A stretch of 64,000 nt of DNA from assembly GCF_964036635.1 (NCBI RefSeq), contig NZ_OZ038524.1:1660001-1724000 (forward strand), given 5' to 3'. This DNA comes from Tenacibaculum dicentrarchi. GTDB taxonomy: Bacteria > Bacteroidota > Bacteroidia > Flavobacteriales > Flavobacteriaceae. Both the position numbers and the translations under genes were made by a program. Of the stretch, positions 1 through 64,000 are shown in pieces (within the stretch, counting starts at the first letter, position 1; every line of letters starts with the position of its first letter). Under the pieces are notes generated by a model, which did not search any database, was not told the DNA's origin, and worked only from the letters and a program-made list of their open reading frames with translations.

Positions 1-2
1 TA

Positions 3-857
3 ATAAAATCCCAAAATGGTGTAATCTGTATTGAGAATAAACTTAAATCTTCACAGCATTCAAATCAATTAAATAGATATAAAGAATCTATTCAACAAAA
101 ATATGGTAATATAAATACAGACTTTTTCTTTTTAACTTTAATAGATGAAAAATCAAATAATGACAATTGGAAAAACATTAGCTACAATCAATTATTGAAT
201 TCACTACAGAAACTTAAAATACAAAATAACACTGACGGACTAATTTTATTGGAGTATATCAAAACACTTGAGAATTTTTCAATTATTATAGCTGACTTTC
301 TTGAAACACCTTCTGATTTCATTAATGTATTTGATGATGGACACAAAACCAAACATCAAAAAAAGGAAGAAATTAAAAACCCAAAACAGCGATTTATAAG
401 TGACAACCAACTTGAAACTATTTTTCAAAAAATGTATTTTAAAAAAGTGGCTGACTTATTAAACTTAACAGATTATTACATCGTAGAAACTCACGGGAAT
501 GCCATTTTGGGAGTACCTATAGAAAAAGAGATTTTAATAGACGGTAAATATTTCAATTTTGGTTTCGACTATCAAAAAGGAACATTTAAAACAATGTGTA
601 TTTCGACAGATTATGAAAATTCAAAATCAACAGACATTCCTAGTCAAATCCCCGAATTATTTGAAAAAATAAAGCACAATCAAAAGTATGGATATAAGAG
701 AGTAAACAAACCAAGAACTAAAGCTCAACATTCTCTTACAAAGAATAACAAAAACAATATTGGAATAGATATTAAACAATTTGCAGAAATTTTTAAAATC
801 GAAATGAATTTATCAAAAGAATTAATACAGAACGAAATAATAAAAAACGTTTGCTAA
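3..857 (+). CDS. PD-(D/E)XK-type nuclease, 5'-truncated by the window (copy 1)
   Basis: This is the 3' part of a gene whose start lies left of the window; the frame is open from base 3. From base 1 on it is essentially identical to the complete gene at 1066-2118 (offset 1261 bases), so the two are tandem copies of one cassette. The visible part begins at the nuclease core: an Ile-Leu-Ile-Lys strand, then the ENK of the (D/E)XK motif in the stretch VICIENKL, followed by a Gln/Tyr-containing helix. The C-terminal 200 residues have no recognised domain. See the complete copy for function. Truncation comes from the window edge, not from mutation. Confidence 0.85.
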   Translation: MKSQNGVICIENKLKSSQHSNQLNRYKESIQQKYGNINTDFFFLTLIDEKSNNDNWKNISYNQLLNSLQKLKIQNNTDGLILLEYIKTLENFSIIIADFLETPSDFINVFDDGHKTKHQKKEEIKNPKQRFISDNQLETIFQKMYFKKVADLLNLTDYYIVETHGNAILGVPIEKEILIDGKYFNFGFDYQKGTFKTMCISTDYENSKSTDIPSQIPELFEKIKHNQKYGYKRVNKPRTKAQHSLTKNNKNNIGIDIKQFAEIFKIEMNLSKELIQNEIIKNVC

Positions 858-1045
858 CAACGTGTATAAAACATAGCTAGCAAGTGCTAAACCCAAAGTT
901 ATCGCTTATTTACAAAGTCCGCCAAATATAAAATTTGCGTTTAAAAATAAAAAAATAAAAGCAAAATATTTATATTCGGCTAAGTATATAACCTGAAACT
1001 GTAATCTATTTTTACACGCTACGTTTCATACACAAACCGTTAGCA
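849..1045 (+). other. attC site (long type) of partial cassette 0
   Basis: Left box GTTTGCTAAC (849-858) is the exact reverse complement of right box GTTAGCAAAC (from 1039). The arms GTGTATaAAAC and GTTTcATACAC follow, and an inner stem pairs the regions around CCGCCAAATATA and TATATTCGG. About 197 bp, one of the long attC class. Confidence 0.88.
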
Positions 1046-1065
1046 AACATTAAAATAAATCACGA

Positions 1066-2118
1066 ATGAATAGAACTTTTTTTGAATATTTAGGAATTGC
1101 TGATATGGAAAAAATCCATTCTCAAATACTACAATGGATATTATCAAAAGACAATAAAAGTTTGACTTCAAATCAAAAAAATGAATTTATTTCTGACTTT
1201 CTGAATATTACCAACTTTGAAGTTTCTGAAATAATAACAGAATATGAAAAAATAGATATTTTAATAAAATCCCAAAATGGTGTAATCTGTATTGAGAATA
1301 AACTTAAATCTTCACAGCATTCAAATCAATTAAATAGATATAAAGAATCTATTCAACAAAAATATGGTAATATAAATACAGACTTTTTCTTTTTAACTTT
1401 AATAGATGAAAAATCAAATAATGACAATTGGAAAAACATTAGCTACAATCAATTATTGAATTCACTACAGAAACTTAAAATACAAAATAACACTGACGGA
1501 CTAATTTTATTGGAGTATATCAAAACACTTGAGAATTTTTCAATTATTATAGCTGACTTTCTTGAAACACCTTCTGATTTCATTAATGTATTTGATGATG
1601 GACACAAAACCAAACATCAAAAAAAGGAAGAAATTAAAAACCCAAAACAGCGATTTATAAGTGACAACCAACTTGAAACTATTTTTCAAAAAATGTATTT
1701 TAAAAAAGTGGCTGACTTATTAAACTTAACAGATTATTACATCGTAGAAACTCACGGGAATGCCATTTTGGGAGTACCTATAGAAAAAGAGATTTTAATA
1801 GACGGTAAATATTTCAATTTTGGTTTCGACTATCAAAAAGGAACATTTAAAACAATGTGTATTTCGACAGATTATGAAAATTCAAAATCAACAGACATTC
1901 CTAGTCAAATCCCCGAATTATTTGAAAAAATAAAGCACAATCAAAAGTATGGATATAAGAGAGTAAACAAACCAAGAACTAAAGCTCAACATTCTCTTAC
2001 AAAGAATAACAAAAACAATATTGGAATAGATATTAAACAATTTGCAGAAATTTTTAAAATCGAAATGAATTTATCAAAAGAATTAATACAGAACGAAATA
2101 ATAAAAAACGTTTGCTAA
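1066..2118 (+). CDS. PD-(D/E)XK nuclease superfamily protein (copy 2)
   Basis: 350 residues. The N-terminal ~130 residues look like a PD-(D/E)XK nuclease core: a helix with ADMEKIHSQILQWIL, then YEKIDILI (catalytic Asp about residue 64), VICIENKL (E-x-K about residues 76-78) and a downstream Gln- and Tyr-rich helix. This order is typical of the PDDEXK_4-like family in Bacteroidota. The remaining ~220 residues are unassigned and may bind DNA or a partner. The start ATG lies 26 bases after the cassette boundary. The only gene of its cassette (1040-2300), which is duplicated in tandem with the preceding partial copy. Predicted role: DNA cleavage, plausibly in phage or plasmid defence; the substrate is unknown. 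Confidence 0.8.
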   Translation: MNRTFFEYLGIADMEKIHSQILQWILSKDNKSLTSNQKNEFISDFLNITNFEVSEIITEYEKIDILIKSQNGVICIENKLKSSQHSNQLNRYKESIQQKYGNINTDFFFLTLIDEKSNNDNWKNISYNQLLNSLQKLKIQNNTDGLILLEYIKTLENFSIIIADFLETPSDFINVFDDGHKTKHQKKEEIKNPKQRFISDNQLETIFQKMYFKKVADLLNLTDYYIVETHGNAILGVPIEKEILIDGKYFNFGFDYQKGTFKTMCISTDYENSKSTDIPSQIPELFEKIKHNQKYGYKRVNKPRTKAQHSLTKNNKNNIGIDIKQFAEIFKIEMNLSKELIQNEIIKNVC

Positions 2119-2306
2119 CAACGTGTATAAAACATAGCTAGCAAGTGCTAAACCCAAAGTTATCGCTTATTTACAAAGTCCGCCAAATATAAAATTTGCG
2201 TTTAAAAATAAAAAAATAAAAGCAAAATATTTATATTCGGCTAAGTATATAACCTGAAACTGTAGTCTATTTTTACACGCTACGTTTCATACACAAACCG
2301 TTGTGC
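2110..2306 (+). other. attC site (long type) of cassette 1040-2300
   Basis: Left box GTTTGCTAAC matches the start of its own cassette (GTTAGCAAAC at 1039). The right box is GTTGTGC of the next cassette. Nearly identical to the attC at 849-1045 (one visible change, caatcta to cagtcta-like). The gene's stop codon lies inside the left box. Confidence 0.88.
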
Positions 2307-2947: not shown

Positions 2948-3082
2948 GTGGCACAACAACATATATAATTTATTGCTAGTACTCATCTACTTACGAAAAT
3001 CCTTAGGGATTTTCTATTCCGTTATAATTTATTATATTCGTTACCCGAAACACGCAACAAACCATATATAAAAACGTTAACC
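2948..3082 (+). other. attC site of cassette 2301-3076
   Basis: Left box GTGGCACAAC is the exact reverse complement of the cassette start GTTGTGCCAC (2300-2309). The arms ATATATAATTTATTG and CAACAAACCATATAT flank an inner hairpin GAAAATCC-ttag-GGATTTTC. This is the common 130-135 bp attC class of the array. Confidence 0.9.
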
Positions 3083-3525
3083 TGCATTAAGCCAAATTAC
3101 ACGGAATATTAACAGAATTAAGCGTTTTCAAAAAGTAAAATCCTGACAAAGATTACGTAAATCTGTTTGTAATGAAAATAGCGGACTTTCTAGCTCGTTT
3201 ACGCAATAGAAACGGAATCGTAAAATAGCAGATTTTGAAAAATATTACGCAAGAATTTGTCTATAATTCTGAAATAAAAATGGCGGACTTTTTAGTTCGT
3301 TTACGCAATCGAAAATAAAAATGAAAAAATGTTCGGAATATTCCCGATGTTAGATTTTTTAGCGTAAATTTATATGAAAATTTAGACAAGTTAAACGCCG
3401 AATAAAAACGCTGAAAAATGTGTGATTTTATAACGGTATTTTAATTAAAAAAGAAAAAACGCACGTTAACAAAGTGTATGAGCGCATATTTTCCTGGCGG
3501 AAAAATACGCCACATACACTAGGCG
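3077..3525 (+). repeat. family A gene-free cassette, copy 1 (449 bp), with attC 3465-3531
   Basis: It starts GTTAACCTGCATTAAGCC and ends in the short A-type attC (GTTAACAAAGTGTATG...CATACACTAGGCGTT). The body holds two diverged tandem units of about 100 bp, each containing GCGGACTTT..TAGYTCGTTTACGCAAT. No gene is credible: the longest micro-frame has an internal TAG in this copy. Confidence 0.88.
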
Positions 3526-3975
3526 TTAACCTGCATTAAGCCAAAATTACACGGAATATTAACATAATTAAGCGTTTTCGAAAAGCAAAATCCTGACAAA
3601 GATTACGTGAATCTGTTTGTAATGAAAATAGCCGACTTTCTAGCTCGTTTACGCAATAGAAACGGAATCGTAAAACAGCAGATTTTGAAAAATATTACGT
3701 AAGATTTTGCTTATAATTCCGAAATGAAAATGGCGGACTTTTTAGTTCGTTTACGCAATCGAAAATAAAAATGAAAAAATGTTCGGAATATTCCCGATGT
3801 TAGATTTTTTAGCGTAAATTTATATGAAAATTTAGACAAGTTAAACGCCGAATAAAAACGCTGAAAAATGTGTGATTTTATAACGGTATTTTAATTAAAA
3901 AAGAAAAAACGCACGTTAACAAAGTGTATGAGCGCATATTTTCCTGGCGGAAAAATACGCCACATACACTAGGCG
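3526..3975 (+). repeat. family A gene-free cassette, copy 2 (450 bp), with attC 3915-3981
   Basis: Same layout as copy 1 and directly adjacent to it. Its attC ends in the CTAGG variant. Differs from its neighbours by scattered single-base changes. Confidence 0.88.
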
Positions 3976-4424
3976 TTAACCTGCATTAAGCCAAATTACA
4001 CGGAATATTAACGGAATAAGCGTTTTCGAAAAGTAAAATCCTGACAAAGATTACGTGAATCTGTTTGTAATGAAAATAGCGGACTTTCTAGCTCGTTTAC
4101 GCAATCGAAACGGAATCGTAAAACAGTAGATTTTGACAAATACCACGTAAGAATTTGTCTATAATTCCGAAATGAAAATGGCGGACTTTTTAGCTCGTTT
4201 ACGCAATCGAAAATAAAAATGAAAAAATGTTCGGAATATTGCCGATTTTAGATTTTTTCACGTAAGTTTATATCAAAATTTAGACAAGTTAAACGCCCAA
4301 TAAAAACGCTGAAAAATATGTGATTTTATAACGGTATTTTAATTAAAAAAGAAAAAAACGCACGTTAACAAAGTGTATGAGCGCATATTTTCCTGGCGGA
4401 AAAATACGCCACATACACTAGGCG
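3976..4424 (+). repeat. family A gene-free cassette, copy 3 (449 bp), with attC 4364-4430
   Basis: Third of three family A cassettes in a row. CTAGG variant attC. It carries the cacgtaag variant late in the body, where its two neighbours have agcgtaaa. Confidence 0.88.
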
Positions 4425-4448
4425 TTAGCACACATTTGAAAAAAACCT

Positions 4449-6150: not shown

Positions 6151-6285
6151 GTGTGCTAACACCGTATATAAAAAATAGCGGTTTAAGTGCTTTATCAAAG
6201 GTAAATTTTATAAATTTAAGGTCAGTACAAAACCGAAAGTTTAGTGCATAAAATCCGCTACTATTCATATACAAGACCGTTGCCC
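6151..6285 (+). other. attC site of cassette 4425-6279
   Basis: Left box GTGTGCTAAC is the exact reverse complement of the cassette start GTTAGCACAC (4424-4433). The right box is GTTGCCC of the next cassette. The arms contain AGCGGTTTAAG and CGCTACTATTCATATAC. Confidence 0.88.
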
Positions 6286-6772: not shown

Positions 6773-6906
6773 TGTGGGCAACAATGTGTATAATTAATGG
6801 CTAGTTCGAGCCTACTTACGAAAATCCTCGCGGATTTTCTATTCGGTTTTTATTTGCTAAATTAGGTGCTTAAACACGCCACTAATCATACACAAACACG
6901 TTGTAG
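6773..6906 (+). other. attC site of cassette 6280-6900
   Basis: Left box TGTGGGCAAC matches the cassette start GTTGCCCACA exactly in reverse complement. Inner hairpin GAAAATCC-tcgc-GGATTTTC. The right box GTTGTAGG begins the next cassette. Confidence 0.9.
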
Positions 6907-8179: not shown

Positions 8180-8622
8180 TGCATTAAGCCAAGTTACACG
8201 GAATATTAACGTAATTAAGCGTTTTCGAAAAGTAAAATCCTGACAAAGATTACGTGAATCTGTTTGTAATGAAAACAGCGGACTTTCTAGCTCGTTTACG
8301 CAATAGAAACGGAATCGTAAAACAGCAGATTTTAAAAAATATCACGTAAGAATTTGTCTATAATTCCGAAATGAAAATGGCGGACTTTTTAGCTCGTTTA
8401 CGCAATAGAAAATAAAAATGAAAAAATGTTCGGAATATTCCCGATTTTAGATTTTTTAGCGTAAGTTTATATGAAAATTTAGACAAGTTAAACACCGAAT
8501 AAAAATGCTGAAAAATATGTGATTTTATAACGGTATTTTAATTAAAAAAGAAAAAACGCACGTTAACAAAGTGTATGAGCGCATATTTTCCTGGCGGAAA
8601 AATACGCAACATACACTAGGCG
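8174..8622 (+). repeat. family A gene-free cassette, copy 4 (449 bp), with attC 8562-8628
   Basis: GTTAACCTGCATTAAGCC start and the two internal tandem units. The attC carries the TACGCAACATACAC variant (others TACGCCACATACAC) and ends CTAGG. Confidence 0.88.
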
Positions 8623-8647
8623 TTGTAGCACATTTGACCAAAAACCA

Positions 8648-9269: not shown

Positions 9270-9405
9270 GTACTACAACACCGTATATAATTTATTGCTA
9301 GTACTAACCTACTTACGAAAATCCTTAGGGGATTTTCTATTCCGCTTTTATTTACTAAATTAGGTGCTCGAAATACGCAACAAATAATATACAAAAACGT
9401 TGGGC
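9270..9405 (+). other. attC site of cassette 8623-9399
   Basis: Left box GTACTACAAC against cassette start GTTGTAGCAC (one mismatch). Inner hairpin GAAAATCC-ttagg-GGATTTTC; arms CCGTATATAATTTATTG and CAACAAATAATATAC. Confidence 0.87.
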
Positions 9406-9947: not shown

Positions 9948-10081
9948 GTAGCCCAACAAAATATATAATTTATTGCTGGTACTCGCCTACTTACGAAAAT
10001 CCTTAGGGATTTTCTATTGCGTTTTTATTTATTATATTTAGTGCATGGAAAACGCAACAAACCATATACAAACCGTTAACC
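9948..10081 (+). other. attC site of cassette 9400-10075
   Basis: Left box GTAGCCCAAC is the exact complement of the cassette start GTTGGGCTAC. Inner hairpin GAAAATCC-ttag-GGATTTTC. The right box GTTAACC starts a family A cassette. Confidence 0.9.
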
Positions 10082-10524
10082 TGCATTAAGCCAAATTACA
10101 CGGAATATTAACGGAATTAAGCGTTTTCGAAAAGTAAAATCCTGACAAAGATTACGTGAATCTGTTTGTAATGAAAATAGCGGACTTTCTAGCTCGTTTG
10201 CGCAATAGAAACGGAATCGTAAAACAGCAGATTTTAAAAAATATTACGTAAGATTTTACTTATAATTCCGAAATGAAAATGGCGGACTTTTTAGCTCGTT
10301 TACGCAATCGAAAATAAAAATGAAAAAATGTTCGGAATATTCCCGATTTTAGATTTTTTCACGTAAGTTTATATGAAAATTTAGACAAGTTAAACGCCGA
10401 ATAAAAACGCTGAAAAATGTGTGATTTTATAACGGTATTTTAATTAAAAAAGAAAAAACGCACGTTAACAAAGTGTATGAGCGCATATTTTCCTGGCGGA
10501 AAAATACGCCACATACACATGGCG
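10076..10524 (+). repeat. family A gene-free cassette, copy 5 (449 bp), with attC 10464-10530
   Basis: Standard layout. CATGG attC variant, which places an ATG two bases before the boundary CGTT. Followed by a family B cassette. Confidence 0.88.
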
Positions 10525-11036
10525 TTAGCTTTCATTAACAAAAAAAATGCGTGAAATTGGAAAAATAAAGCGTTTTCCTAAAGTAGAATCCTGATAAATA
10601 TTACGCAATTAGAAATGGAATTTTAACGCAGAAGATTTTGAAAAATATTACGTAAGAATCTGTCCGCAATTATGAAATAGAAACGGTGGAATTTTATCCT
10701 GTTTATGCAATCGGAAATGAAAAACTGTGGGATTCTGACAAATATTACGCAAGAATCTGTCTGTAATTCTGAAATGAAAATGGCGGACTTTTAGCCTGTT
10801 TGCGAAATTAGGAATGAAAATTTAGACAAGTTAAACGCCGAATAAAAACGCTGAAAAATATGTGGTTTTATATCGGTATTTTAATTGTAAAAAAGGAAAA
10901 ATAAACGAAAAGCTAACAAAATATATAATTTATTGCTAGTGCTCGCCTACCTACGAAAATCCTTAGGGGATTTTCTATTCCGTTTTTATTTACTTAATTT
11001 AGTGCTTCAAAAATGCAACAAACCATATATAAATCG
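10525..11036 (+). repeat. family B gene-free cassette, copy 1 (512 bp, subtype 1), with attC 10908-11042
   Basis: Starts GTTAGCTTTCATTAAC; its left box AAAAGCTAAC pairs with that start. The body has repeated units with ATTACGCAAGAATCTGTCTG and GGCGGACTTTTAGCCTG, homologous to the units of family A. The attC is of the common 135-bp class (TATATAATTTATTGCTAGTG). Confidence 0.87.
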
Positions 11037-11485
11037 TTAACCTGCATTAAGCCAAATTACACGGAATATTAACGGAATTAAGCGTTTTCGAAAAGTAAAA
11101 TCCTGACAAAGATTACGTGAATCTGTTTGTAATGAAAACAGCGGACTTTCTAGCTCGTTTACGCAATAGAAACGGAATCGTAAAACAGCAGATTTTAAAA
11201 AATATTACGCAAGAATTTGTCTATAATTCCGAAATGAAAATGGCGGACTTTTTAGCTCGTTTACGCAATAGAAAATAAAAATGAAAAAATGTTCGGAATA
11301 TTCCCGATGTTAGATTTTTTAGCGTAAGTTTATATGAAAATTTAGACAAGTTAAACACCGAATAAAAATGCTGAAAAATATGTGATTTTATAACGGTATT
11401 TTAATTAAAAAAGAAAAAACGCACGTTAACAAAGTGTATGAGCGCATATTTTCCTGGCGGAAAAATACGCCACATACACATGGCG
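11037..11485 (+). repeat. family A gene-free cassette, copy 6 (449 bp), with attC 11425-11491
   Basis: Standard layout, CATGG attC variant. Shares the ACACCGAATAAAAATGCTG variant with copies 4, 8 and 13, suggesting a sub-lineage. Confidence 0.88.
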
Positions 11486-11648
11486 TTGTAAGTAATTTGA
11501 AACAATAGAATGGAAAAGTAACTCACTAAAAGAGAATATTTGAATCATTAAATCCAATTTATGAATGAATTCAAAAAGTTTATAACAGTCGGAATAAGCA
11601 GAATTAAGACTTAAAATTAGGAGTAGGCAGAAATTTTAATTATTAAAA

Positions 11649-12504: not shown

Positions 12505-12699
12505 ACTTACAACATAGCATATAAAAAATAGGGGTTTTGTGCTAACTCTAAAGTTCCGTGTTTATTTACAAAGTCCGCTAAATATAAAATTTGGCATTTA
12601 AACGAAAATTAAAAACAAAATATTTATATTTAGCTAAGTATTAAACCGAAAAGATAGTGCTTATCTACTGCCCTACTTTTCATATACTAACCGTTAACC
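12505..12699 (+). other. attC site (long type) of cassette 11486-12693
   Basis: Left box ACTTACAAC pairs with the cassette start GTTGTAAGT. About 195 bp, with the inner segments CCGCTAAATATA and TATATTTAGCTAAG. Confidence 0.87.
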
Positions 12700-13142
12700 T
12701 GCATTAAGCCAAATTACACGGAATATTAACGTAATTAAGCATTTTCGAAAAGTAAAATTCTGACAAAGATTACGTGAATCTGTTTGTAATGAAAACAGCG
12801 GACTTTCTAGCTCGTTTGCGCAATATAAACGGAATCGTAAAACAGCAGATTTTAAAAAATATTACGTAAGATTTTGCTTATAATTCCGAAATAAAACCGT
12901 AGATTTTTTAGCTCGTTTACGCAATCGAAAATAAAAATGAATAAATGTTCTGAATATTCCCGATTTTAGATTTTTTAGCGTAAGTTTATATGAAAATTTA
13001 GACAAGTTAAATGCCGAATAAAAACGCTGAAAAATATGTGATTTTATAACGGTATTTTAATTAAAAAAGAAAAAAACGCACGTTAACAAAGTGTATGAGC
13101 GCATATTTTCCTGGCGGAAAAATACGCCACATACACTAGGCG
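12694..13142 (+). repeat. family A gene-free cassette, copy 7 (449 bp), with attC 13082-13148
   Basis: Standard layout, CTAGG attC variant. Carries ATAAAACCGTAGA instead of ATGAAAATGGCGGA in the second tandem unit, which breaks the micro-frame. Confidence 0.88.
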
Positions 13143-13197
13143 TTGGCAAAAATGCTAAAAACGAAAAAACAATTACTAATTAAAAACTAAATGATTT

Positions 13198-40236: not shown

Positions 40237-40247
40237 TTGTGCAACAT

Positions 40248-48851: not shown

Positions 48852-48889
48852 TTGTAACACATTAATAAAAAACACCCTGAATTAAAGAT

Positions 48890-50060: not shown

Positions 50061-50072
50061 TTGGGTACAATT

Positions 50073-50654
50073 ATGAAAAACAACATTTTCCACAACAAAA
50101 AATTTGAAATAAATGGAATTTATGTACCTGAATTTAAATTAAAAAGCGGAAACCTAATTAGAATTTATATTCCAAATTTCAATTTTGAAAACTTACCTTT
50201 AGGTTTTGACTTGACTATCGAATTAATAAAACGATTCCAAAATCAAAAGACTGATTTTCCTTGGGCAAAAAACTACCGACAAAATAGTCTTATAGAGTTT
50301 TTAAGTCCTTTGACTGTAAATAAATACTTGATTAATAAAATGTCTATTGACAAATTGACCGCAAAAATAATCGCAGAGGAAATCGGAATTAGTTTAAATG
50401 AAAAATTTGAATATTTAAGTTTCAAAAACAAAAAAGCACTAATTATAAAAGCCTATTTTGAAAAAAACGATTATATTCTTTTAGATTATTATGGAGTCGA
50501 TGCAATGGGAATTAAGTTTTTAGAGAATTTAATTAATTCTGAAATAGAAAAAGGAAAATCTGCGATTGCTTTTGACAATTTACAATACGCAAATAAAAAA
50601 GAACCTTATGAAAATATTAAAGCGATAAAAATAACTGTACCCAACAACGTATAA
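50073..50654 (+). CDS. unknown protein, faint ABC-ATPase-like tail
   Basis: 193 residues. No Walker A. Near the C-terminus ILLDYYGVDAMGIKFLENLINSEIEKGKSAIAFDN (about 135-170) resembles the D-loop and switch region of ABC ATPases, so it may be a degenerate or truncated ATPase-like fold; uncertain. Start ATG 50073, 12 bases after the boundary. Longer in-frame starts at 50013 and 50055 (ATG in the CATGG attC end) would add attC-encoded residues. The stop lies just inside the attC. Sole gene of cassette 50061-50764. Confidence 0.62.
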   Translation: MKNNIFHNKKFEINGIYVPEFKLKSGNLIRIYIPNFNFENLPLGFDLTIELIKRFQNQKTDFPWAKNYRQNSLIEFLSPLTVNKYLINKMSIDKLTAKIIAEEIGISLNEKFEYLSFKNKKALIIKAYFEKNDYILLDYYGVDAMGIKFLENLINSEIEKGKSAIAFDNLQYANKKEPYENIKAIKITVPNNV

Positions 50655-50770
50655 AAATAATGCTTAATTTAGTGCTTAATTAAAAACCTGTGCACTTTTG
50701 TTACGTCTGATTTTCCTTCGGAAAATCCTCGCACACAAAACCGCACTATTATTATACAAAACCGTTAACC
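50636..50770 (+). other. attC site of cassette 50061-50764
   Basis: Left box TGTACCCAAC pairs with the cassette start GTTGGGTACA exactly. Core like family B subtype 2 (AAATAATGCTTAATTTAG, hairpin GATTTTCC-ttc-GGAAAATC). The coding frame above ends inside it. Confidence 0.89.
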
Positions 50771-51214
50771 TGCATTAAGCCAAATTACACGGAATATTAA
50801 CGTAATTAAGCGTTTTCTAAAAGTAAAATTCTGACAAAGATTACGTGAATCTGTTTGTAATGAGAATAGCGGACTTTCTAGCTCCTTTGCGCAATAGAAA
50901 CGGAATCGTAAAACAGCAGATTTTGAAAAATATTACGTAAGATTTTACTTATAATTCCGAAATGAAAATGGCGGACTTTTTAGCTCGTTTACGCAATCGA
51001 AAATAAAAATGAAAAAATGTTCGGAATATTCCCGATGTTAGATTTTTTAGCGTAAGTTTATATGAAAATTTAGACAAGTTAAATGCCGAATAAAAACGCT
51101 GAAAAATATGTGATTTTATAACGGTATTTTAATTAAAAAAGAAAAAAACGCACGTTAACAAAGTGTATGAGCGCATATTTTCCTGGCGGAAAAATACGCC
51201 ACATACACATGGCG
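50765..51214 (+). repeat. family A gene-free cassette, copy 20 (450 bp), with attC 51154-51220
   Basis: Standard layout, CATGG variant; carries CTCCTTTGCGC, shared with copies 21 and 23. Confidence 0.88.
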
Positions 51215-51246
51215 TTGGCATTCATACAAATAAACATTCACTAAAA

Positions 51247-52178: not shown

Positions 52179-52315
52179 AAATGCCAACACCGTATATAAT
52201 TTATTGCTGGCTTTTTGCTTACTTACGAAAGTCCTCGTGGACTTTCTTGGTCGGTAATTATTTACTAAATTAATTGCTTGAAACACGCAACAAACCATAT
52301 ACAAACACGTTAGCA
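52179..52315 (+). other. attC site of cassette 51215-52309
   Basis: Left box AAATGCCAAC against the cassette start GTTGGCATTC (one mismatch). Inner hairpin GAAAGTCC-tcgt-GGACTTTC. Confidence 0.88.
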
Positions 52316-53924: not shown

Positions 53925-54058
53925 TATTGCTAACACCGTATATAATTTATTGCTAGTTCTAGCCTACTTACGAAAATCCTCGCGGATTTTCTATTCGGTT
54001 TTTATTTGCTAAATTACGTGCTTAACCACGCAACAAACCATATACAAACACGTTAGCT
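53925..54058 (+). other. attC site of cassette 52310-54052
   Basis: Left box TATTGCTAAC pairs with the cassette start GTTAGCAATA exactly. Inner hairpin GAAAATCC-tcgc-GGATTTTC. Confidence 0.9.
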
Positions 54059-54562
54059 TTCATTAACAAAAAAATGCGTGAAATTGGAAAAATAAAGCGG
54101 TTTAAAAAAGTAGAATCCTGATAAATATTACGCAATTAGAAATGGAATTTTAACGCAGAAGATTTTGAAAAATATTACGTAAGAATCTGTCCGCAATTAT
54201 GAAATAGAAACGGCAGACTTTAGCCTGTTTATGCAATCGGAAATGAAAAACTGTGGGATTCTGACAAATATTACGCAAGAATCTGTCTGTAATTCTGAAA
54301 TGAAAATGGCGGACTTTTAGCCTGTTTGCGAAATTAGGAATAAAAATTTAGACAAGTTAAACACCGAATAAAAACGCTGAAAAATATGTGGTTTTATATC
54401 GGTATTTTAATTGTAAAAAAGGAAAAATAAACGAAAAGCTAACAAAATATATAATTTATTGCTAGTGCTCGCCTACTTACGAAAATCCTTAGGGGATTTT
54501 CTATTTCGTTTTTATTTACTAAATTAGTTGCTCGAAAAACACAACAAACCATATATAAACCG
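54053..54562 (+). repeat. family B gene-free cassette, copy 7 (510 bp, mosaic), with attC 54434-54568
   Basis: Subtype 1 leader and attC, but GCGGTTTAAAAAAGTAG (subtype 2) in place of GCGTTTTCCTAAAGTAG: a small recombinant patch. Confidence 0.87.
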
Positions 54563-54754
54563 TTGCCAATAATACTTTGGAAACGTTATTTTTAATATAA
54601 ATTATTACTAAAAGTCTTTATTTTTTGCCACTGATTTTTTAGCTCGTTTTCGGAATTAATATACGAAATATTAATTTTATTCATTTAATTTTTGTAAGTT
54701 TAGTGTTGTTAATGAGTTATGTTTATAAATTGTACAATGATTAAAAATTTATCG

Positions 54755-55900: not shown

Positions 55901-56035
55901 TATTGGCAACACCGTATATACTTTATAGCTTTTTTAGTGCTTATTTACGAAAATACTCGCCTACCTTTAATCTGGGTTTTATTTACTATTTTAGTGATTT
56001 AGAAACGCTACAAAGCATATACAAAAACGTTAACC
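55901..56035 (+). other. attC site of cassette 54563-56029
   Basis: Left box TATTGGCAAC pairs with the cassette start GTTGCCAATA exactly. The core is unlike the common type (AAAATACTCGCCTACCTTTAATC, no strong inner hairpin). Confidence 0.88.
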
Positions 56036-56478
56036 TGCATTAAGCCAAATTACACGGAATATTAACGGAATTAAGCGTTTTCGAAAAGTAAAATCCTGAC
56101 AAAGATTACGTGAATCTGTTTGTAATGAAAATAGCCGACTTTCTAGCTCCTTTGCGCAATAGAAACGGAATCGTAAAACAGCAGATTTTGACAAATATTA
56201 CGTAAGATTTTGCTTATAATTCCGAAATGAAAATGGCGGACTTTTTAGCTCGTTTACGCAATAGAAAATAAAAATGAAAAAATGTTCGGAATATTCCCAA
56301 TTTTAGATTTTTTAGCGTAAGTTTATATCAAAATTTATACAAGTTAAACGCCGAATAAAAACGCTGAAAAATATGTGATTTTATAACGGTATTTTAATTA
56401 AAAAAGAAAAAACGCACGTTAACAAAGTGTATGAGCGCATATTTTCCTGGCGGAAAAATACGCCACATACACATGGCG
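56030..56478 (+). repeat. family A gene-free cassette, copy 21 (449 bp), with attC 56418-56484
   Basis: Standard layout, CATGG variant; CTCCTTTGCGC sub-lineage; TTATACAAG instead of TTAGACAAG. Followed by family B. Confidence 0.88.
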
Positions 56479-56989
56479 TTAGCTTTCATTAACAAAAAAA
56501 ATGCGTGAAATTGGAAAAATAAAGCGTTTTCCTAAAGTAGAATCCTGATAAATATTACGCAATTAGAAATGGAATTTTAACACAGAAGATTTTGAAAAAT
56601 ATTACGCAAGAATCTGTCTGTAATTCTGAAATGGAAACGGCAGACTTTAGCCTGTTTATACAATCGGAAATGAAAAACTGTGGGATTCTGACAAATATTA
56701 CGCAAGAATCTGTCTGTAATTCTGAAATAAAAATGGCGGACTTTTAGCCTGTTTACGAAATTAGGAATGAAAATTTAGACAAGTTAAACGCCGAATAAAA
56801 ATGCTGAAAAATATGTAGTTTTATATCGGTATTTTAATTGTAAAAAAGGAAAAATAAACGAAAAGCTAACAAAATATATAATTTATTGCTAGTGCTCGCC
56901 TACCTACGAAAATCCTTAGGGGATTTTCTATTTCGTTTTTATTTACTAAATTAGTTGCTCGAAAAACACAACAAACCATATATAAACCG
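56479..56989 (+). repeat. family B gene-free cassette, copy 8 (511 bp, subtype 1), with attC 56861-56995
   Basis: Subtype 1, with CTGTCTGTAATTCTG in place of CTGTCCGCAATTATG in the first unit. Confidence 0.87.
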
Positions 56990-57438
56990 TTAACCTGCAT
57001 TAAGCCAAATTACACGGAATATTAACGGAATTAAGCGTTTTCGAAAAGTAAAATCCTGACAAAGATTACGTGAATCTGTTTGTAATGAAAATAGCCGACT
57101 TTCTAGCTCGTTTGCGCAATAGAAACGGAATCGTAAAACAGCAGATTTTGACAAATATCACGTAAGATTTTGCTTATAATTCCGAAATGAAAATGGCGGA
57201 ATTTTTAGCTCGTTTACGCAATCGAAAATAAAAATGAAAAAATGTTCGGAATATTCCCGATTTTAGATTTTTTCACGTAAGTTTATATGAAAATTTAGAC
57301 AAGTTAAACGCCGAATAAAAACGCTGAAAAATATGTGATTTTATAACGGTATTTTAATTAAAAAAGAAAAAACGCACGTTAACAAAGTGTATGAGCGCAT
57401 ATTTTCCTGGCGGAAAAATACGCCACATACACTAGGCG
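56990..57438 (+). repeat. family A gene-free cassette, copy 22 (449 bp), with attC 57378-57444
   Basis: Standard layout, CTAGG variant; attC opens in frame into the next gene. Confidence 0.88.
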
Positions 57439-57461
57439 TTGTAAATAATTTAAAAAAAAAT

Positions 57462-58270: not shown

Positions 58271-58406
58271 TATTTACAACACCATATATAATTTATTGCT
58301 AGCTTCTCGCCTACTTACGAAAGTCCTCGTGGACTTTCTTGGTTGGTAATTATTTACTAAATTATTTGCTTGAAATACGCAACAAACCATATACAAAACG
58401 TTAACC
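58271..58406 (+). other. attC site of cassette 57439-58400
   Basis: Left box TATTTACAAC pairs with the cassette start GTTGTAAATA exactly. Inner hairpin GAAAGTCC-tcgt-GGACTTTC. Confidence 0.89.
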
Positions 58407-58848
58407 TGCATTAAGCCAAATTACACGGAATATTAACGTAATTAAGCGTTTTCGAAAAGTAAAATTCTGACAAAGATTACGTGAATCTGTTTGTAATGAA
58501 AATAGCCGACTTTCTAGCTCCTTTGCGCAATAGAAACGGAATCGTAAAACAGTAGATTTTGACAAATATCACGTAAGATTTTGCTTATAATTCCGAAATG
58601 AAACCGTAGATTTTTTAGCTCGTTTACGCAATCGAAAATAAAAATGAAAAAATGTTCGGAATATTCCCGATTTTAGATTTTTTAGCGTAAGTTTATATGA
58701 AAATTTAGACAAGTTAAACGCCGAATAAAAACGCTGAAAAATGTGTGATTTTATAACGGTATTTTAATTAAAAAAGAAAAAACGCACGTTAACAAAGTGT
58801 ATGAGCGCATATTTTCCTGGCGGAAAAATACGCAACATACACTAGGCG
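58401..58848 (+). repeat. family A gene-free cassette, copy 23 (448 bp), with attC 58788-58854
   Basis: Standard layout, CTAGG variant with TACGCAACATACAC. Directly followed by copy 24. Confidence 0.88.
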
Positions 58849-59291
58849 TTAACCTGCATTAAGCCAAATTACACAGAATATTAACGTAATTAAGCGTTTT
58901 CGAAAAGTAAAATCCTGACAAAGATTACGTGAATCTGTTTGTAATGAAAATAGCGGACTTTCTAGCTCGTTTACGCAATAGAAACGGAATCGTAAAACAG
59001 TAGATTTTGACAAATATCACGTAAGAATTTGTCTATAATTCCGAAATGAAAATGGCGGACTTTTTAGCTCGTTTACGCAATAGAAAATAAAAAAATGTTC
59101 GGAATATTGCCGATTTTAGATTTTTTCACGTAAGTTTATATCAAAATTTAGACAAGTTAAACGCCCAATAAAAACGCTGAAAAATATGTGATTTTATAAC
59201 GGTATTTTAATTAAAAAAGAAAAAACGCACGTTAACAAAGTGTATGAGCGCATATTTTCCTGGCGGAAAAATACGCCACATACACATGGCG
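58849..59291 (+). repeat. family A gene-free cassette, copy 24 (443 bp), with attC 59231-59297
   Basis: Lacks six bases between AATAAAA and AAATGTTCGG. CATGG variant. Confidence 0.88.
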
Positions 59292-59317
59292 TTGTAAAAC
59301 ATTTGAAACCAATAAAA

Positions 59318-59849: not shown

Positions 59850-59984
59850 ATTTTACAACACCATGTATAATTAATTGCTGGTTTTAGCTAATTTACGAAA
59901 ATCCTCGCGGACTTTCTATCTGTGATTTATTTACTAACTTTAGTGCTTGAAACACGCAACTAATCATACACAAACACGTTAACC
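59850..59984 (+). other. attC site of cassette 59292-59978
   Basis: Left box ATTTTACAAC pairs with the cassette start GTTGTAAAAC (one mismatch). Inner hairpin GAAAATCC-tcgc-GGACTTTC has a bulge. Confidence 0.88.
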
Positions 59985-60325
59985 TGCATTAAGCCAAATT
60001 ACACGGAATATTAACGGAATTAAGCGTTTTCGAAAAGTAAAATCCTGACAAAGATTACGTGAATCTGTTTGTAATGAAAATAGCCGACTTTTTAGCTCGT
60101 TTACGCAATCGAAAATAAAAATGAAAAAATGTTCGGAATATCCCCGATTTTAGATTTTTTAGCGTAAGTTTATATGAAAATTTAGACAAGTTAAACGCCG
60201 AATAAAAACGCTGAAAAATGTGTGATTTTATAACGGTATTTTAATTAAAAAAGAAAAAACGCACGTTAACAAAGTGTATGAGCGCATATTTTCCTGGCGG
60301 AAAAATACGCCACATACACATGGCG
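59979..60325 (+). repeat. family A gene-free cassette, copy 25, internally deleted (347 bp), with attC 60265-60331
   Basis: 102 bp shorter than the usual 449. The missing part is exactly one internal tandem unit: the first GACTTT joins directly to TTAGCTCGTTTACGCAATC of the second. CATGG variant. Shows that the units recombine. Confidence 0.9.
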
Positions 60326-60837
60326 TTAGCTTTCATTAACAAAAAAAATGCGTGAAATTGGAAAAATAAAGCGTTTTCCTAAAGTAGAATCCTGATAAAT
60401 ATTACGCAATTAGAAATGGAATTTTAACGCAGAAGATTTTGAAAAATATTACGTAAGAATCTGTCCGCAATTATGAAATAGAAACGGTGGAATTTTATCC
60501 TGTTTATGCAATCGGAAATGAAAAACTGTGGGATTCTGACAAATATTACGCAAGAATCTGTCTGTAATTCTGAAATGAAAATGGCGGACTTTTAGCTTGT
60601 TTGCGAAATTATGAATGAAAATTTAGACAAGTTAAACGCCGAATAAAAACGCTGAAAAATATGTGGTTTTATATCGGTATTTTAATTGTAAAAAAGGAAA
60701 AATAAACGAAAAGCTAACAAAATATATAATTTATTGCTAGTGCTCGCCTACCTACGAAAATCCTTAGGGGATTTTCTATTTCGTTTTTATTTACTAAATT
60801 AGTTGCTCGAAAAACGCAACAAACCATATATAAACCG
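60326..60837 (+). repeat. family B gene-free cassette, copy 9 (512 bp, subtype 1), with attC 60709-60843
   Basis: Subtype 1, very close to copy 1 (10525-11036), including GAAACGGTGGAATTTTATCC. Confidence 0.87.
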
Positions 60838-60983
60838 TTAGAGTGCATTAAAACGCACAATAACAACGGTTATAAAAAATATGTGTTTTTAGTCACATAA
60901 GAAAGTCCATTGTTTACTATGTGTTTAGTGTTTATTTATTAGCTTAGTCACTTAACAGTCACATAAATTTCATACCCAAAACG
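60838..60983 (+). repeat. attC-only minimal cassette (146 bp), attC 60855-60989
   Basis: Starts GTTAGAGTGC; the left box GCACAATAAC (60855-60864) pairs with 8 of 10 bases of that start, leaving only 16-17 bases of body. Arms TTATAAAAAATATGTG and CACATAAATTTCATA. It carries no gene. Confidence 0.75.
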
Positions 60984-61003
60984 TTAGCTGTTATACAAGA
61001 AAT

Positions 61004-62005
61004 ATGAACAATAAAGTAAGTATATTTTACTCTTGGCAGAGTGACTGCCCTTCAGATACTAATCAAAAAGCCATTAGTATTTGCATTGAAGAAGCTAAAC
61101 TCAAAATAAAAAAAGACAACAATGAAATTGATATTTCAATTGATGAAGCTATAAGAAACAAATCAGGTAGCCCTGAAATACCTAAAACAATAATTGAGAA
61201 AATAGAAAAATCAGATATTTTTATTTGTGACCTTACAACGATAAATAGTAGTTGCAATTGTAATAACCGTAAATCTCCTAATCCAAATGTTGTTTTCGAG
61301 TTAGGATATGCTGTGTCTATGTTAGGATGGGAGAGAATTATTATGGTATTCAATAAAAAATATGGTAACTTTAAAGATGAATTACCATTTGATTTAGAAA
61401 AAAGAAGAGTTTCAGAATTTAAAATTGATGATAAAAATGATAAATCTGGAAAAGGGAATTTAACATCTATACTCAAAACAGGAATTGAATCGATTATTAA
61501 TTTAAACCCTTCAAAACCATACAAGATTGAAAATAATAGCGTAAAAAGAGATAGAGACATTGTTATTCTCAATCAATTTTTATCTTCAATACACATAGAA
61601 ACAATTGATATTTTTATTCAGAATTTACCCACTATGATTAAAAACGATATGTTCTTCTATTTTGATTTGGTAAGAAAATTATTTGAAAGTAGTAACTTCT
61701 TTATTTATGATGATGACCTAAAAATAAAATTATATAATTTTTATAAAAATTGGATTTCAATCATCCGATATGACAATTTATTTACTTCAAATAATTTTAA
61801 TAAAGACTTGATATTGAATTTAAAATTTGATGTTTTTGAAAAAAAACAAGACGAATTAGATTTTAAAAAGATGACAGTTAAGTCTTCAGAAATTAATGTA
61901 ACATTTAAAGAACTTCTTGATTACATCAAAAAAAATTATTTAATAGTTGACATTGAAAAAAACAGTGAATTAGCTAAAGGAAAATTTATAAAATACAACA
62001 GCTAA
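61004..62005 (+). CDS. TIR-like nucleotide-binding defence-type protein
   Basis: 333 residues. The N-terminal ~165 residues have the pattern KVSIFYSWQSDCPSDTNQKAI, DEAIRNKSGSPEIPKTIIEKIEKSDIFICDLT, and SPNPNVVFELGYAVSMLGWERIIMVFN...GNFKDELPFDLEKRR, the TIR-like predicted nucleotide-binding family common in defence islands; the Glu in VFELGYA occupies the catalytic-Glu position of TIR NADases. The C-terminal half (about 175-333) is helical with no recognised domain and is probably the sensing part. Sole gene of cassette 60984-62125; the stop overlaps the left box of attC. Confidence 0.83.
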   Translation: MNNKVSIFYSWQSDCPSDTNQKAISICIEEAKLKIKKDNNEIDISIDEAIRNKSGSPEIPKTIIEKIEKSDIFICDLTTINSSCNCNNRKSPNPNVVFELGYAVSMLGWERIIMVFNKKYGNFKDELPFDLEKRRVSEFKIDDKNDKSGKGNLTSILKTGIESIINLNPSKPYKIENNSVKRDRDIVILNQFLSSIHIETIDIFIQNLPTMIKNDMFFYFDLVRKLFESSNFFIYDDDLKIKLYNFYKNWISIIRYDNLFTSNNFNKDLILNLKFDVFEKKQDELDFKKMTVKSSEINVTFKELLDYIKKNYLIVDIEKNSELAKGKFIKYNS

Positions 62006-62131
62006 CACCGTGTATAATTAATTGCTAGTTTTAGCTCACTTTGGAAATTCCTTCGGAATTTCTGCCGTTCGTGTTTTATTTAGTAAATTAGTTGCTTAAA
62101 TAACGCAACAAATCATACACAAACCGTTGTG
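61997..62131 (+). other. attC site of cassette 60984-62125
   Basis: Left box AACAGCTAAC pairs with the cassette start GTTAGCTGTT exactly and contains the gene's stop codon. Inner hairpin GGAAATTCC-ttc-GGAATTTC. Confidence 0.9.
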
Positions 62132-62160: not shown

Positions 62161-63213
62161 ATGAATAGTTTAGAAATAGATTTTTTACCTGTCGGAAATG
62201 GAGAAAAGAGCGGAGATGCTATTGCTTTTAGGTATGGTAATTTTTCCAATCCATCGGAACAGAAAGTTATTATAATTGATGGAGGCACAAAAGAATCAGG
62301 AAAAGAGTTATGTAAGCTTATAAAAGAAACATACAAGACATACATAATTGATATAGTTATTTGTACTCATCCGGATGGTGACCACGCATCTGGCTTAAGA
62401 GAAGTTCTTGGTGATGAAGAATTAACAATTAAATCCTTAATAATACATAAGCCTTGGGAACACTCTAAAGAGATTAAAGATTTATTTCACGATGGACGGA
62501 TTACATCAAATAGTTTATCTGAAAGGCTTAAAGAAGCTTATAATTTCGCTTACGAGTGTGTAGAGATTGCAGAACGTAGAGGAATTAAAATATACGAACC
62601 ATTTAGTGGTTTATCATATGATAATAAAATCATTAGAGTTCTTGGTCCAGATAAGAATTATTATTTATCATTACTTCCAGATTTTGCAAAAAGTCCTAAA
62701 GCTAAAGAAACAAGTCTTCAAAAGTCATTTAGTGCTGTAAAAGAAGCTGTCAATTGGGTTAGAGAATCAATGCAAATAGAGACTTTAAGTGAAGATGGTG
62801 AAACTTCTGCAGAAAATAATTCTAGTGCTGTTGTTCTTCTTGAACTGGACGGAGATAAATATTTATTTACTGGAGATACTGGAATTCCAGCTCTGAAAAG
62901 AATTATTGACTACTGCAATAATAAAGGAATTGATATTTCAAATGTGAAATTTATGCAAGTACCTCACCACGGAAGTAAAAGGAACATTTCACCTAGTATT
63001 CTAAATTCTATAAAATGTAAAACTGCATATGTATCAGCTTCTAAAGATGCTCCTAAACACCCTGCAAAAAAAGTGATTAATGCTTATATTAGAAGAGGTG
63101 CAAAAGTCTACACAACTGAGGGAACTGGACTAAATCATCATATAAATACTAATACTAGAATTGGATGGTCATCAGCAACACCAAAACCATTCTCTGAAAA
63201 CGTTGAAGATTAA
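62161..63213 (+). CDS. ComEC/Rec2-like metallo-beta-lactamase-fold protein
   Basis: 350 residues. The metallo-hydrolase core is clear: VGNGEKSGDAIAFRYG near the N-terminus, CTHPDGDHASGL (HxDxDH at about 70-75), YLFTGDTG (about 237-243) and VPHHGSKRN (about 268-275), ending in AYVSASKDAPKHPAKKVINAY. This is the soluble beta-lactamase-like domain of ComEC-type proteins, here free-standing. It abuts the following membrane-protein gene with no gap (stop TAA then ATG), so they probably form a complex. Likely a phosphodiesterase or nuclease acting on nucleic acid or nucleotide at the membrane; the substrate is inferred. Confidence 0.85.
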   Translation: MNSLEIDFLPVGNGEKSGDAIAFRYGNFSNPSEQKVIIIDGGTKESGKELCKLIKETYKTYIIDIVICTHPDGDHASGLREVLGDEELTIKSLIIHKPWEHSKEIKDLFHDGRITSNSLSERLKEAYNFAYECVEIAERRGIKIYEPFSGLSYDNKIIRVLGPDKNYYLSLLPDFAKSPKAKETSLQKSFSAVKEAVNWVRESMQIETLSEDGETSAENNSSAVVLLELDGDKYLFTGDTGIPALKRIIDYCNNKGIDISNVKFMQVPHHGSKRNISPSILNSIKCKTAYVSASKDAPKHPAKKVINAYIRRGAKVYTTEGTGLNHHINTNTRIGWSSATPKPFSENVED

Positions 63214-63921
63214 ATGAATATTTATAACTTAAAAGCTCGTATCTATCCAGTGATATTATCACTACTACCTATTATAATTATTGGAACATTATTCTCGATT
63301 CAGTTCCAATCCTATTATCAGTCATTAGGTAGCCTTGGATTAACAACTATTCTATTTTTTCTGTTTTCTCAGGTTGGACGAGATAGAGGAAAAAAGATAG
63401 AAATTGATTTATGGTCTGAATGGGGTGGCGCTCCAACAACTCAAATTTTTCGTTTTTCAGATAATACCATTAATTCAATAACAAAAAGAAAGTATCATCA
63501 AACTATGTGTGAGCTAATTCCAAACGAAATAACACCATCCGCATCAGAAGAAGAGAATTCTACAGGATTATTTGATGAAGTATACCAATCGTGGACAAAG
63601 TTTTTGATAAGTAAAACTAGAGACACAAAAAAGCACGACCTTTTATTCAACGAAAACATTAATTATGGTTTTAGAAGAAATACATTAGGGTTAAAACCTT
63701 TTTCCATTGTTGTAATTATTATTCTTTCAATTGGTATATGGACTAATAATTACATATCAAATGAAACAATTAATTATATGGATTCTTCTACTCTTATTTC
63801 TCAAATAATTCTATTGGTGTTTTTGTTATTCTGGATATTTATTGTCAATAAAAGTTGGGTGAAAATACCAGCTTTTGGATATGCCGAAAGACTACTTGAA
63901 ACAGTTGATAAGATAAAATAA
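63214..63921 (+). CDS. membrane partner of the MBL-fold protein
   Basis: 235 residues. Four membrane segments: IYPVILSLLPIIIIGTLFSI (about 10-29), SLGSLGLTTILFFLFSQV (about 36-53), SIVVIIILSIGIWTN (about 167-181) and STLISQIILLVFLLFWIFIV (about 191-210). A soluble loop of ~110 residues lies between the pairs, with LWSEWGGAPTTQIFRFSD. It starts directly at the stop of the MBL gene. Family not recognised; a membrane effector or docking partner is a reasonable guess. Confidence 0.75.
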   Translation: MNIYNLKARIYPVILSLLPIIIIGTLFSIQFQSYYQSLGSLGLTTILFFLFSQVGRDRGKKIEIDLWSEWGGAPTTQIFRFSDNTINSITKRKYHQTMCELIPNEITPSASEEENSTGLFDEVYQSWTKFLISKTRDTKKHDLLFNENINYGFRRNTLGLKPFSIVVIIILSIGIWTNNYISNETINYMDSSTLISQIILLVFLLFWIFIVNKSWVKIPAFGYAERLLETVDKIK

Positions 63922-63922
63922 C

Positions 63923-64000
63923 GCACCACAACAATGTGTATAGTTAATACGGGTTTAGTGCTTAACCAAAAGTTTTGTGTATATTTACTAAGTCCGTCAA
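63923..64000 (+). other. attC site (partial) of cassette 62126-end
   Basis: Left box GCACCACAAC pairs with the cassette start GTTGTGGTGC exactly. The right half lies beyond the window; what is visible (AAGTTTTGTGTATATTTACTAAGTCCGTC) suggests the long type. Confidence 0.87.

Follow-up and report, generated by a model that had tools for sequence, protein, structure and literature searches.

A giant integron-like cassette array in Tenacibaculum headed by a tyrosine recombinase without the IntI-specific domain

Introduction

Classical integrons share a cut at G^TT, attC sites whose R and L boxes form hairpins, folding of the bottom strand and the pairing of each cassette start with the cassette's own site; in canonical integrons, the R box follows the consensus G^TTRRRY. 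Here, we analyse 64,000 nucleotides of Tenacibaculum dicentrarchi DNA (contig NZ_OZ038524.1, positions 1660001-1724000; this whole stretch is called the window), which carry attC-like sites throughout, together with the tyrosine recombinase gene and the attI site found at the head of the same cassette array. As presented in the available part of PMC8618304, canonical sedentary chromosomal integrons comprise an integrase, IntI, with an additional domain, an attI site and attC arrays of up to 200+ cassettes.

The IntI-specific domain (also called the patch) serves as a marker for finding integrons, according to the portions of two studies at hand (PMC9668308, PMC2426708), and surveys can therefore overlook a whole patch-less integron lineage. 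In Bacteroidetes proper, the accessible part of the IntegronFinder 2.0 study lists a single complete integron, that of Salinibacter ruber (PMC9024848), and the excerpt available for T. larymnensis states that no integron was found (PMC10013915). Archaeal integrons, in the available part of their description, encode IntI that keep the domain, and their longest single-contig array has 12 sites (PMC9668308). Finally, one step proposed for the origin of integrons is that a Xer-like ancestor acquired the domain (PMC4792948, available in part). Our literature search returned no report of Tenacibaculum integrons or of integron integrases without the additional domain; it left preprints and most subscription journals uncovered and is not proof of absence.

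Like canonical integrons, the Tenacibaculum locus associates a recombinase gene, an attI site and a long one-way cassette array, and shows the G^TT cut site, R- and L-box hairpins, bottom-strand folding and unit starts paired with their own sites. Unlike them, it has a recombinase without the ~42-residue IntI insertion and with an extra N-terminal domain. Moreover, G^TTRRRY is not kept, the sites have their own classes of AAC-to-GTT distance, fixed G.T wobbles and an asymmetric spacer, the gene, attI and cassettes are all read one way with attI past the stop codon, and 99 of the 195 cassettes lack an open reading frame (ORF) of 70 aa. With archaeal integrons, as far as the available text of PMC9668308 describes them, the locus has in common an integrase clade that is distinct and found beyond the usual hosts, and an attI directly downstream of the integrase gene, but its recombinase lacks the IntI-specific domain and its array has 195 sites versus 12.

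It is highly probable, from the sequence evidence presented below, that this locus is a chromosomal integron of ~200 cassettes that works or did so until recently, driven by the adjacent patch-less recombinase of a sister lineage and not by a canonical IntI. In the tests run, it appears integron-like save for two points, namely the recombinase without the IntI-specific domain and the failure of G^TTRRRY. What is chiefly new at the locus is this lineage of patch-less integrases, which has an attC design of its own: the domain missing from the recombinase is the feature by which integron integrases have been defined until now. The data suggest that Bacteroidota harbour a distinct lineage of integrons that capture genes and have escaped notice.

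The cassette array and its attC sites

The window belongs to a closed genome of 2,808,268 bases. A flanking stretch of this genome shares 99.0% identity with T. dicentrarchi TDCHD05 (locus L018) and 92-98% with two strains of T. finnmarkense (loci L019 and L020); the host is therefore a T. dicentrarchi-like flavobacterium (Bacteroidota). A first pattern scan indicated that the sites run on beyond both window edges. Sites were then counted with a covariance model, R1, built from 30 window sites aligned on the bottom strand (16-bp consensus stem), and, for a short 57-nt type, with a separate pattern. Taken together, these give 195 attC-like sites in the array, all in one orientation, of which 71 are in the window (46 by the covariance model and 25 of the short type). 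The AAC-to-GTT distance is 113-123 nt in 129 of the 195 sites, 57-58 in 61 and 183-186 in 5. The whole array spans ~181 kb (contig 1617584-1798690), about three times the length of the window, which is its middle third; its 195 units have a median length of 561 bp (range 146-5645). A preliminary description of the window had proposed a giant integron-type array in a Bacteroidota-like genome, with about 76 attC sites in one orientation. The array, its size and the single orientation are borne out by the sites and by the own-start rule described below; the count becomes 71, plus two sites placed by that rule (about 12511-12695 and 49490-49613), and the extent given was incomplete. Array-wide, the rule adds 7 sites to the 195.

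The same description had called for an attC covariance model on the window and its flanks. Over 284 kb, the purpose-built R1 gave 134 matches at E<=0.01, on a single strand and all in the window and the adjoining loci L008-L014; at the same threshold, none was found in the 80 kb of loci L007 and L015-L017. Of the 112 genome-wide matches (150 of 5013 candidates scored), 111 lie inside 1618014-1798690. The solo match outside the array, at contig 2514731-2514854 (L183 5732-5855), has a right box without GTT and was judged a decayed stray site; lying far from the array, it is possibly an old off-target insertion. No Rfam family matched in the window at gathering thresholds.

The features of the window are as follows (window coordinates). 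Long sites (AAC..GTT, bottom strand folds) are R1 matches and short 57-nt sites are pattern matches; two sites missed by R1 follow from the own-start rule only.

1..64000, plus strand, middle third of the cassette array (recombinase gene and attI outside the window)
856..1041, minus strand, long attC, R1
2117..2302, minus strand, long attC, R1
2955..3078, minus strand, long attC, R1
3468..3527, minus strand, short attC, pattern
3918..3977, minus strand, short attC, pattern
4367..4426, minus strand, short attC, pattern
6158..6281, minus strand, long attC, R1
6780..6902, minus strand, long attC, R1
8565..8624, minus strand, short attC, pattern
9277..9401, minus strand, long attC, R1
9955..10077, minus strand, long attC, R1
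10467..10526, minus strand, short attC, pattern
10915..11038, minus strand, long attC, R1
11428..11487, minus strand, short attC, pattern
about 12511..12695, minus strand, attC missed by R1, own-start rule only
13085..13144, minus strand, short attC, pattern
13716..13838, minus strand, long attC, R1
14677..14801, minus strand, long attC, R1
18574..18762, minus strand, long attC, R1
19152..19211, minus strand, short attC, pattern
19591..19713, minus strand, long attC, R1
20333..20458, minus strand, long attC, R1
21304..21490, minus strand, long attC, R1
22495..22617, minus strand, long attC, R1
22982..23106, minus strand, long attC, R1
28628..28751, minus strand, long attC, R1
29146..29205, minus strand, short attC, pattern
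29595..29654, minus strand, short attC, pattern
30229..30352, minus strand, long attC, R1
30909..31032, minus strand, long attC, R1
31414..31538, minus strand, long attC, R1
32232..32355, minus strand, long attC, R1
32744..32803, minus strand, short attC, pattern
33191..33314, minus strand, long attC, R1
35637..35761, minus strand, long attC, R1
36151..36210, minus strand, short attC, pattern
36664..36786, minus strand, long attC, R1
37690..37814, minus strand, long attC, R1
38204..38263, minus strand, short attC, pattern
39160..39284, minus strand, long attC, R1
39666..39789, minus strand, long attC, R1
40179..40238, minus strand, short attC, pattern
41195..41320, minus strand, long attC, R1
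41709..41768, minus strand, short attC, pattern
42193..42316, minus strand, long attC, R1
42977..43100, minus strand, long attC, R1
43491..43550, minus strand, short attC, pattern
43930..44052, minus strand, long attC, R1
44433..44555, minus strand, long attC, R1
44945..45004, minus strand, short attC, pattern
45395..45454, minus strand, short attC, pattern
46475..46598, minus strand, long attC, R1
48229..48351, minus strand, long attC, R1
48731..48853, minus strand, long attC, R1
about 49490..49613, minus strand, attC missed by R1, own-start rule only
50003..50062, minus strand, short attC, pattern
50643..50766, minus strand, long attC, R1
51157..51216, minus strand, short attC, pattern
52186..52311, minus strand, long attC, R1
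53932..54054, minus strand, long attC, R1
54441..54564, minus strand, long attC, R1
55908..56031, minus strand, long attC, R1
56421..56480, minus strand, short attC, pattern
56868..56991, minus strand, long attC, R1
57381..57440, minus strand, short attC, pattern
58278..58402, minus strand, long attC, R1
58791..58850, minus strand, short attC, pattern
59234..59293, minus strand, short attC, pattern
59857..59980, minus strand, long attC, R1
60268..60327, minus strand, short attC, pattern
60716..60839, minus strand, long attC, R1
60862..60985, minus strand, long attC, R1
62004..62128, minus strand, long attC, R1

The own-start rule and the fold of the sites

The own-start rule compares the six bases that follow G^TT with the left box of the site ending the same unit; the two would be expected to be complementary, since only in the excised circle do they come together. 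Such self-complementarity had been proposed for the window, and it is found, at 5 or 6 of the 6 bases, in 67 of the 71 window units and in 181 of the 195 array units. Summed over the array, the matches amount to 1047, whereas 10,000 shuffles average 424 and never exceed 506. In an earlier count on 171 units, a start paired at 4.8 of 6 bases with its own unit and at 2.2 of 6 with the next. Seven of the 14 units breaking the rule are two units fused across a site that R1 missed. The consensus G^TTRRRY, also put forward in the preliminary description, did not survive: it is satisfied at 6 of the 195 boundaries (4 of 31 distinct ones), and the sole constant after G^TT among these 31 is a purine (G^TTR). 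An explanation of the insertion sequence or miniature inverted-repeat transposable element type was ruled out by the own-start rule.

Covariation was studied in 76 sites outside the training window (67 distinct). There, 98.9% of the cells are paired and changes on both sides occur in 12 of the 16 pairs, with 100 such cells versus 19.4 in shuffled and 11-21 in slid controls; it should be noted that the alignment was fitted to the model and is biased towards the structure. One G.T wobble is fixed in 67/67 sites and another in 60/67 (7 unpaired), as in the training set (30/30 and 29/30); the same positions read as A.C mismatches on the top strand. Stability favours the bottom strand in 135 of 136 distinct sites when they are folded as circles (median -4.8 kcal/mol) and in 132 of 136 when they are folded in linear form, whereas the bottom strand is favoured in 90/150 control fragments outside the array and in 18/70 cassette bodies. 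Five folded examples display an outer R box, an asymmetric unpaired spacer and a nearly continuous L box. As in canonical integrons, the sites are tandem one-way hairpins with paired arms and a favoured bottom strand. An ATAYA motif lies near the cut in the right arm of 185/195 sites, versus 5.8% in background; the ATATAAC of attI, described below, looks similar.

The attI site and natural insertions

The array is headed by the gene of a 391-aa tyrosine recombinase (contig 1616366-1617541, plus strand, in the cassette direction), 42.5 kb upstream of the window. That no integrase lies in the window, as initially stated, agrees with the gene being outside it, but the statement was incomplete. 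The attI site lies behind the stop codon, its G being at contig 1617584. The proposal that the array might be a cluster of attC sites lacking an integron integrase (CALIN) is not supported, because a recombinase with attI heads it.

Natural insertions are visible at this position. TDCHD05 is 99% identical to the host genome through the recombinase and its 3' flank, then wholly different. In four strains of two species, a near-identical attI flank is followed by four different first cassettes, each from the exact G^, with the junctions ...TATTTGGTTG^TTGTAATT, ^TTGTGTGT, ^TTGCAAGT and ^TTGGCAAC. The first unit possesses, in three of these four strains, a perfect own left box farther downstream. 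One Tenacibaculum genome carries two integrons (L093 and L094) with identical attI and different first cassettes. Thus, as in canonical integrons, the attI adjoining the recombinase gene is the insertion point. The genome of L093 and L094 has at least two recombinase-headed arrays; its third recombinase match holds stop codons.

Among 30 Tenacibaculum loci, ATATAACnnG^TT is found behind the stop codon in 18, at 28-43 nt (once at 115). A TAnnTTTG motif, which we take to be the Bacteroidetes -7 promoter element, lies near attI in 13 of the 30 (8 at one fixed place, two within the gene end) and in 4.7% of background 75-nt windows; it may mark a cassette promoter (Pc) in attI, such as canonical integrons have.

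Duplicated cassettes

Eleven sets of base-identical whole cassettes are present, 9 dispersed and 2 tandem, the longest measuring 2447 and 1753 bp. An ORF-less cassette of ~450 bp occurs in 53 copies of 430-470 bp (49 distinct) array-wide, including 22 units of the window, and is bordered by 33 different unit starts before it and 28 behind. It could be imagined that homologous recombination or slippage between long repeats enlarged the array without any site-specific recombinase, since the 53 similar units and the two tandem exact duplicates offer ample homology. This is hardly credible: nine sets consist of single cassettes whose copies are dispersed, runs of two identical cassettes do not occur in the array, neither the own-start rule nor two-sided covariation would be expected, and different genes occur at one exact base, attI.

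The recombinase and its relationship to IntI

The catalytic residues, R250, K275, H339, R342, H365 and Y374, are invariant across 36 aligned proteins, the other 35 being 60-87% identical to the recombinase. The patch was looked for in this protein by motif spacing, profiles and alignment, and was not found. The GLR-to-HxLRH spacing is 91-92 residues in 19/19 Tenacibaculum proteins and in 25 of 28 measurable other patch-less proteins (96, 106 and 106 in the rest); in canonical IntI it is 133 in 10/10, then 133-138 in 24/24 measurable of 25. The alignment shows directly that the IntI-specific block, an insertion of ~42 residues, is absent. With the integron integrase profile TIGR02249, the protein scores 195.9 bits, under the cut-off of 265, in two stretches skipping about profile positions 180-240, and its match to IntI4 (2A3V) is broken in two around the patch. 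A search of the flanks for a patch-bearing tyrosine recombinase, advised in the preliminary description, found none; the recombinase at the array head is without the patch.

In a maximum-likelihood tree of 46 patch-less, 18 IntI, 18 Xer and 2 XerA rows, the patch-less clade (97/87) and IntI (100/100) are joined with 100/97 support against XerC, XerD and XerA. Left out were six Xer rows (long or fused), two patch-less rows that were long, seven IntI rows nearly identical to others, L029 because of a stop codon and four loci that lacked a usable ORF; L198 was kept with 19% of the columns. Quicker trees likewise join IntI and the patch-less proteins; one without the XerA rows leaves their mutual branching open and carries long-branch warnings. 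The array-head recombinase therefore belongs to a clade sister to IntI. Like XerA-type recombinases (NF040815; PDB 5hxy, 4a8e), it has no patch, and its best NCBIfam and core-fold matches are of this type. Unlike them, it groups with IntI and not with the two XerA segments, which weakens its filing under the XerA family, and the match to the 5hxy and 4a8e chains starts after its N-terminal domain.

This raises the question of whether the cassettes could be moved by the XerC and XerD of the host, as in integrative mobile elements exploiting Xer (IMEX), the adjacent recombinase being a helper or unrelated. XerC- and XerD-like proteins are encoded in the host genome, and Xer enzymes can use folded phage DNA, according to the available part of PMC4792948. 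Nevertheless, we regard this explanation as very unlikely, as the array is separated from either Xer gene by at least about 300 kb, the adjacent recombinase clusters with IntI and not with Xer, and attI sits behind the gene of that recombinase.

XerC, XerD and XerA are without the patch, so that gain of the domain on the IntI branch is a shorter story than its loss. The origin of integrons becomes testable because a group sister to IntI recombines, if this is confirmed, without that domain. It can be proposed, tentatively, that the locus represents a second, deep integron branch that split from IntI before the additional domain was acquired, and in which an N-terminal HARP/XPB-like domain and the wobbles replace that domain and the extrahelical bases; we lean somewhat away from this fuller reading. 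The N-terminal domain invites comparison with the SMARCAL1 HARP domain and the XPB damage-recognition domain (PDB 4o66, 6p66), a comparison that is suggestive only. Three of 16 members match HARP (PF07443) at E<=1 (best 0.01, 15.8 bits, under the gathering value of 25) and four match DUF5710 (best E 0.0005); the weak resemblance to HARP/XPB fork-binding domains remains suggestive.

Distribution in Tenacibaculum and other Bacteroidota

A recombinase homologue is found at E<=1e-60 in 37 of 58 Tenacibaculum genomes. In the neighbourhoods of 30 of the 41 recombinase loci outside the host genome, R1 sites lie behind the recombinase in 26, and 233 of 234 sites, tallied by eye, are downstream in the expected orientation. 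According to another explanation, a canonical IntI, now lost or acting from elsewhere, built the array, which would be a CALIN with the adjacent recombinase as a bystander. The lack of the patch in that recombinase fits this idea, and other families of Bacteroidota often have canonical IntI (over the cut-off in 105 of 395 phylum genomes). The same search gave no canonical IntI over the cut-off in any of the 58 Tenacibaculum genomes, whereas R1 sites occur at E<=1e-6 in 51 of them. Moreover, the recombinase heads the array in the 26 neighbourhoods, precedes the first boundary by ~50-120 nt in six loci of other genera, and is near-identical among strains whose attI junctions vary. A CALIN thus appears improbable, and an integron driven by the adjacent recombinase is preferred.

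In the phylum, recombinase homologues are found at E<=1e-65 in 71 of the 395 genomes, some matching in the core only. With a chain finder that needs no site model, 12 of 28 loci yield chains of 3-7 units, whereas reversed sequence yields 0-2; 11 of the 12 are among the 26 loci outside Tenacibaculum (L168 and L172 being the Tenacibaculum loci). Plain reversal is the valid control; the reverse complement (chains up to 7) cannot serve, since it obeys the own-start rule as well. The finder is insensitive, scoring 3 (reverse complement 2) at the known head of the host array; 16 of the 28 loci, several on short contigs, gave no chain of at least 3, and the first link looks weak in L029 and L181. Distances within chains are mostly 114-125 nt, others being 56-100 and 151-189. 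In six loci (L028, L165, L166, L173, L175 and L178), the chain starts about 50-120 nt behind the recombinase match; three belong to other Flavobacteriaceae, two to another family of the class and one (L173) lies outside the class. On these sequence criteria, the architecture recurs in other Bacteroidota families. In Marinoscillum (L030 11126-21125), a ~19-base repeat occurs in five copies behind a homologous recombinase, with no R1 site and no chain above 1.

Proposed mechanism

The data are consistent with the following mechanism. The bottom strand of attC, as a single-stranded substrate, would fold into an outer R box of ~9-13 bp, an asymmetric unpaired spacer and an L box of 16 bp that carries fixed G.T wobbles; the six variable R-box bases match the cassette's own start. 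The G.T wobbles, as A.C mismatches on the top strand, would set which strand folds. The recombinase would cut at G^TT and release cassettes as circles, to be reinserted either at other attC sites or at the attI that closely follows the recombinase stop codon. With the IntI domain missing, its part in holding the forked hairpin may be taken by the conserved N-terminal domain.

Several points weigh against an active integron driven by this recombinase. Its best NCBIfam match is XerA-type (NF040815, 230.8 bits, over the cut-off of 220); the model name reads 'site-specific tyrosine recombinase/integron integrase'. The XerC/XerD spacing (92-166 in 23 Xer rows) overlaps that of the patch-less proteins, and the missing patch alone therefore does not tie these to IntI. 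Long branches and composition warnings affect the tree. A 2001 study by Messier and Roy reportedly found, judging by its title, that the patch is necessary for IntI activity. Seven of the 14 units breaking the own-start rule are without explanation. The first unit of L019 has one left-box candidate, at 5 of 6 bases, on a 2.9-kb contig remnant. Finally, in four of the 30 neighbourhoods no array follows the recombinase (L081, L104 and L109 have no site, L107 one, on the wrong side).

Cassette content

In this array, Tenacibaculum may maintain a large reserve of genes, unknown and defence-like, that is being shuffled. Of the 96 units with an ORF of 70 aa, 92 have it read along the array. The cassettes of interest in the window are:

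3077..4424, plus strand, three consecutive copies of the ORF-less ~450-bp cassette
23105..28749, plus strand, largest cassette, encoding a DdmD-like protein (23136-26657) next to a 659-aa protein with no Pfam match
33313..35759, plus strand, 2447-bp cassette with a transposase-like ORF (rve/HTH_38); exact copy at window -16726 to -14280
46597..48349, plus strand, 1753-bp cassette with a PD-Lambda-1-like defence protein; exact copy at window -5138 to -3386

The ORF-less cassette could conceivably supply promoters, act as a spacer or be selfish. The 659-aa neighbour of the DdmD-like protein is perhaps a DdmE partner, which would make a two-gene defence unit in one cassette. The transposase-like ORF (HTH_38, rve; window 33388-34392) lies inside a cassette present in two identical copies. 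A TonB-dependent receptor gene (window 15441-17624) lies in a 3961-bp cassette and is large as cassette cargo. In a Pfam scan of 40 window ORFs, 17 have a family at E<=0.001. Among ten ORFs preselected as likely defence genes, 6 have a PADLOC match at E<=1e-5, including DdmD (5e-49), PD-Lambda-1 (3e-111), PDC-S19 (4e-128) and OLD/AriA-like; since the ten were hand-picked, this count is no measure of enrichment. Cassette arrays may also be the reason why Tenacibaculum draft assemblies break there. The draft contigs L019, L021, L023 and L028 stop at 0.2-2.9 kb past the recombinase, which would be expected if assembly fails at repeated cassettes.

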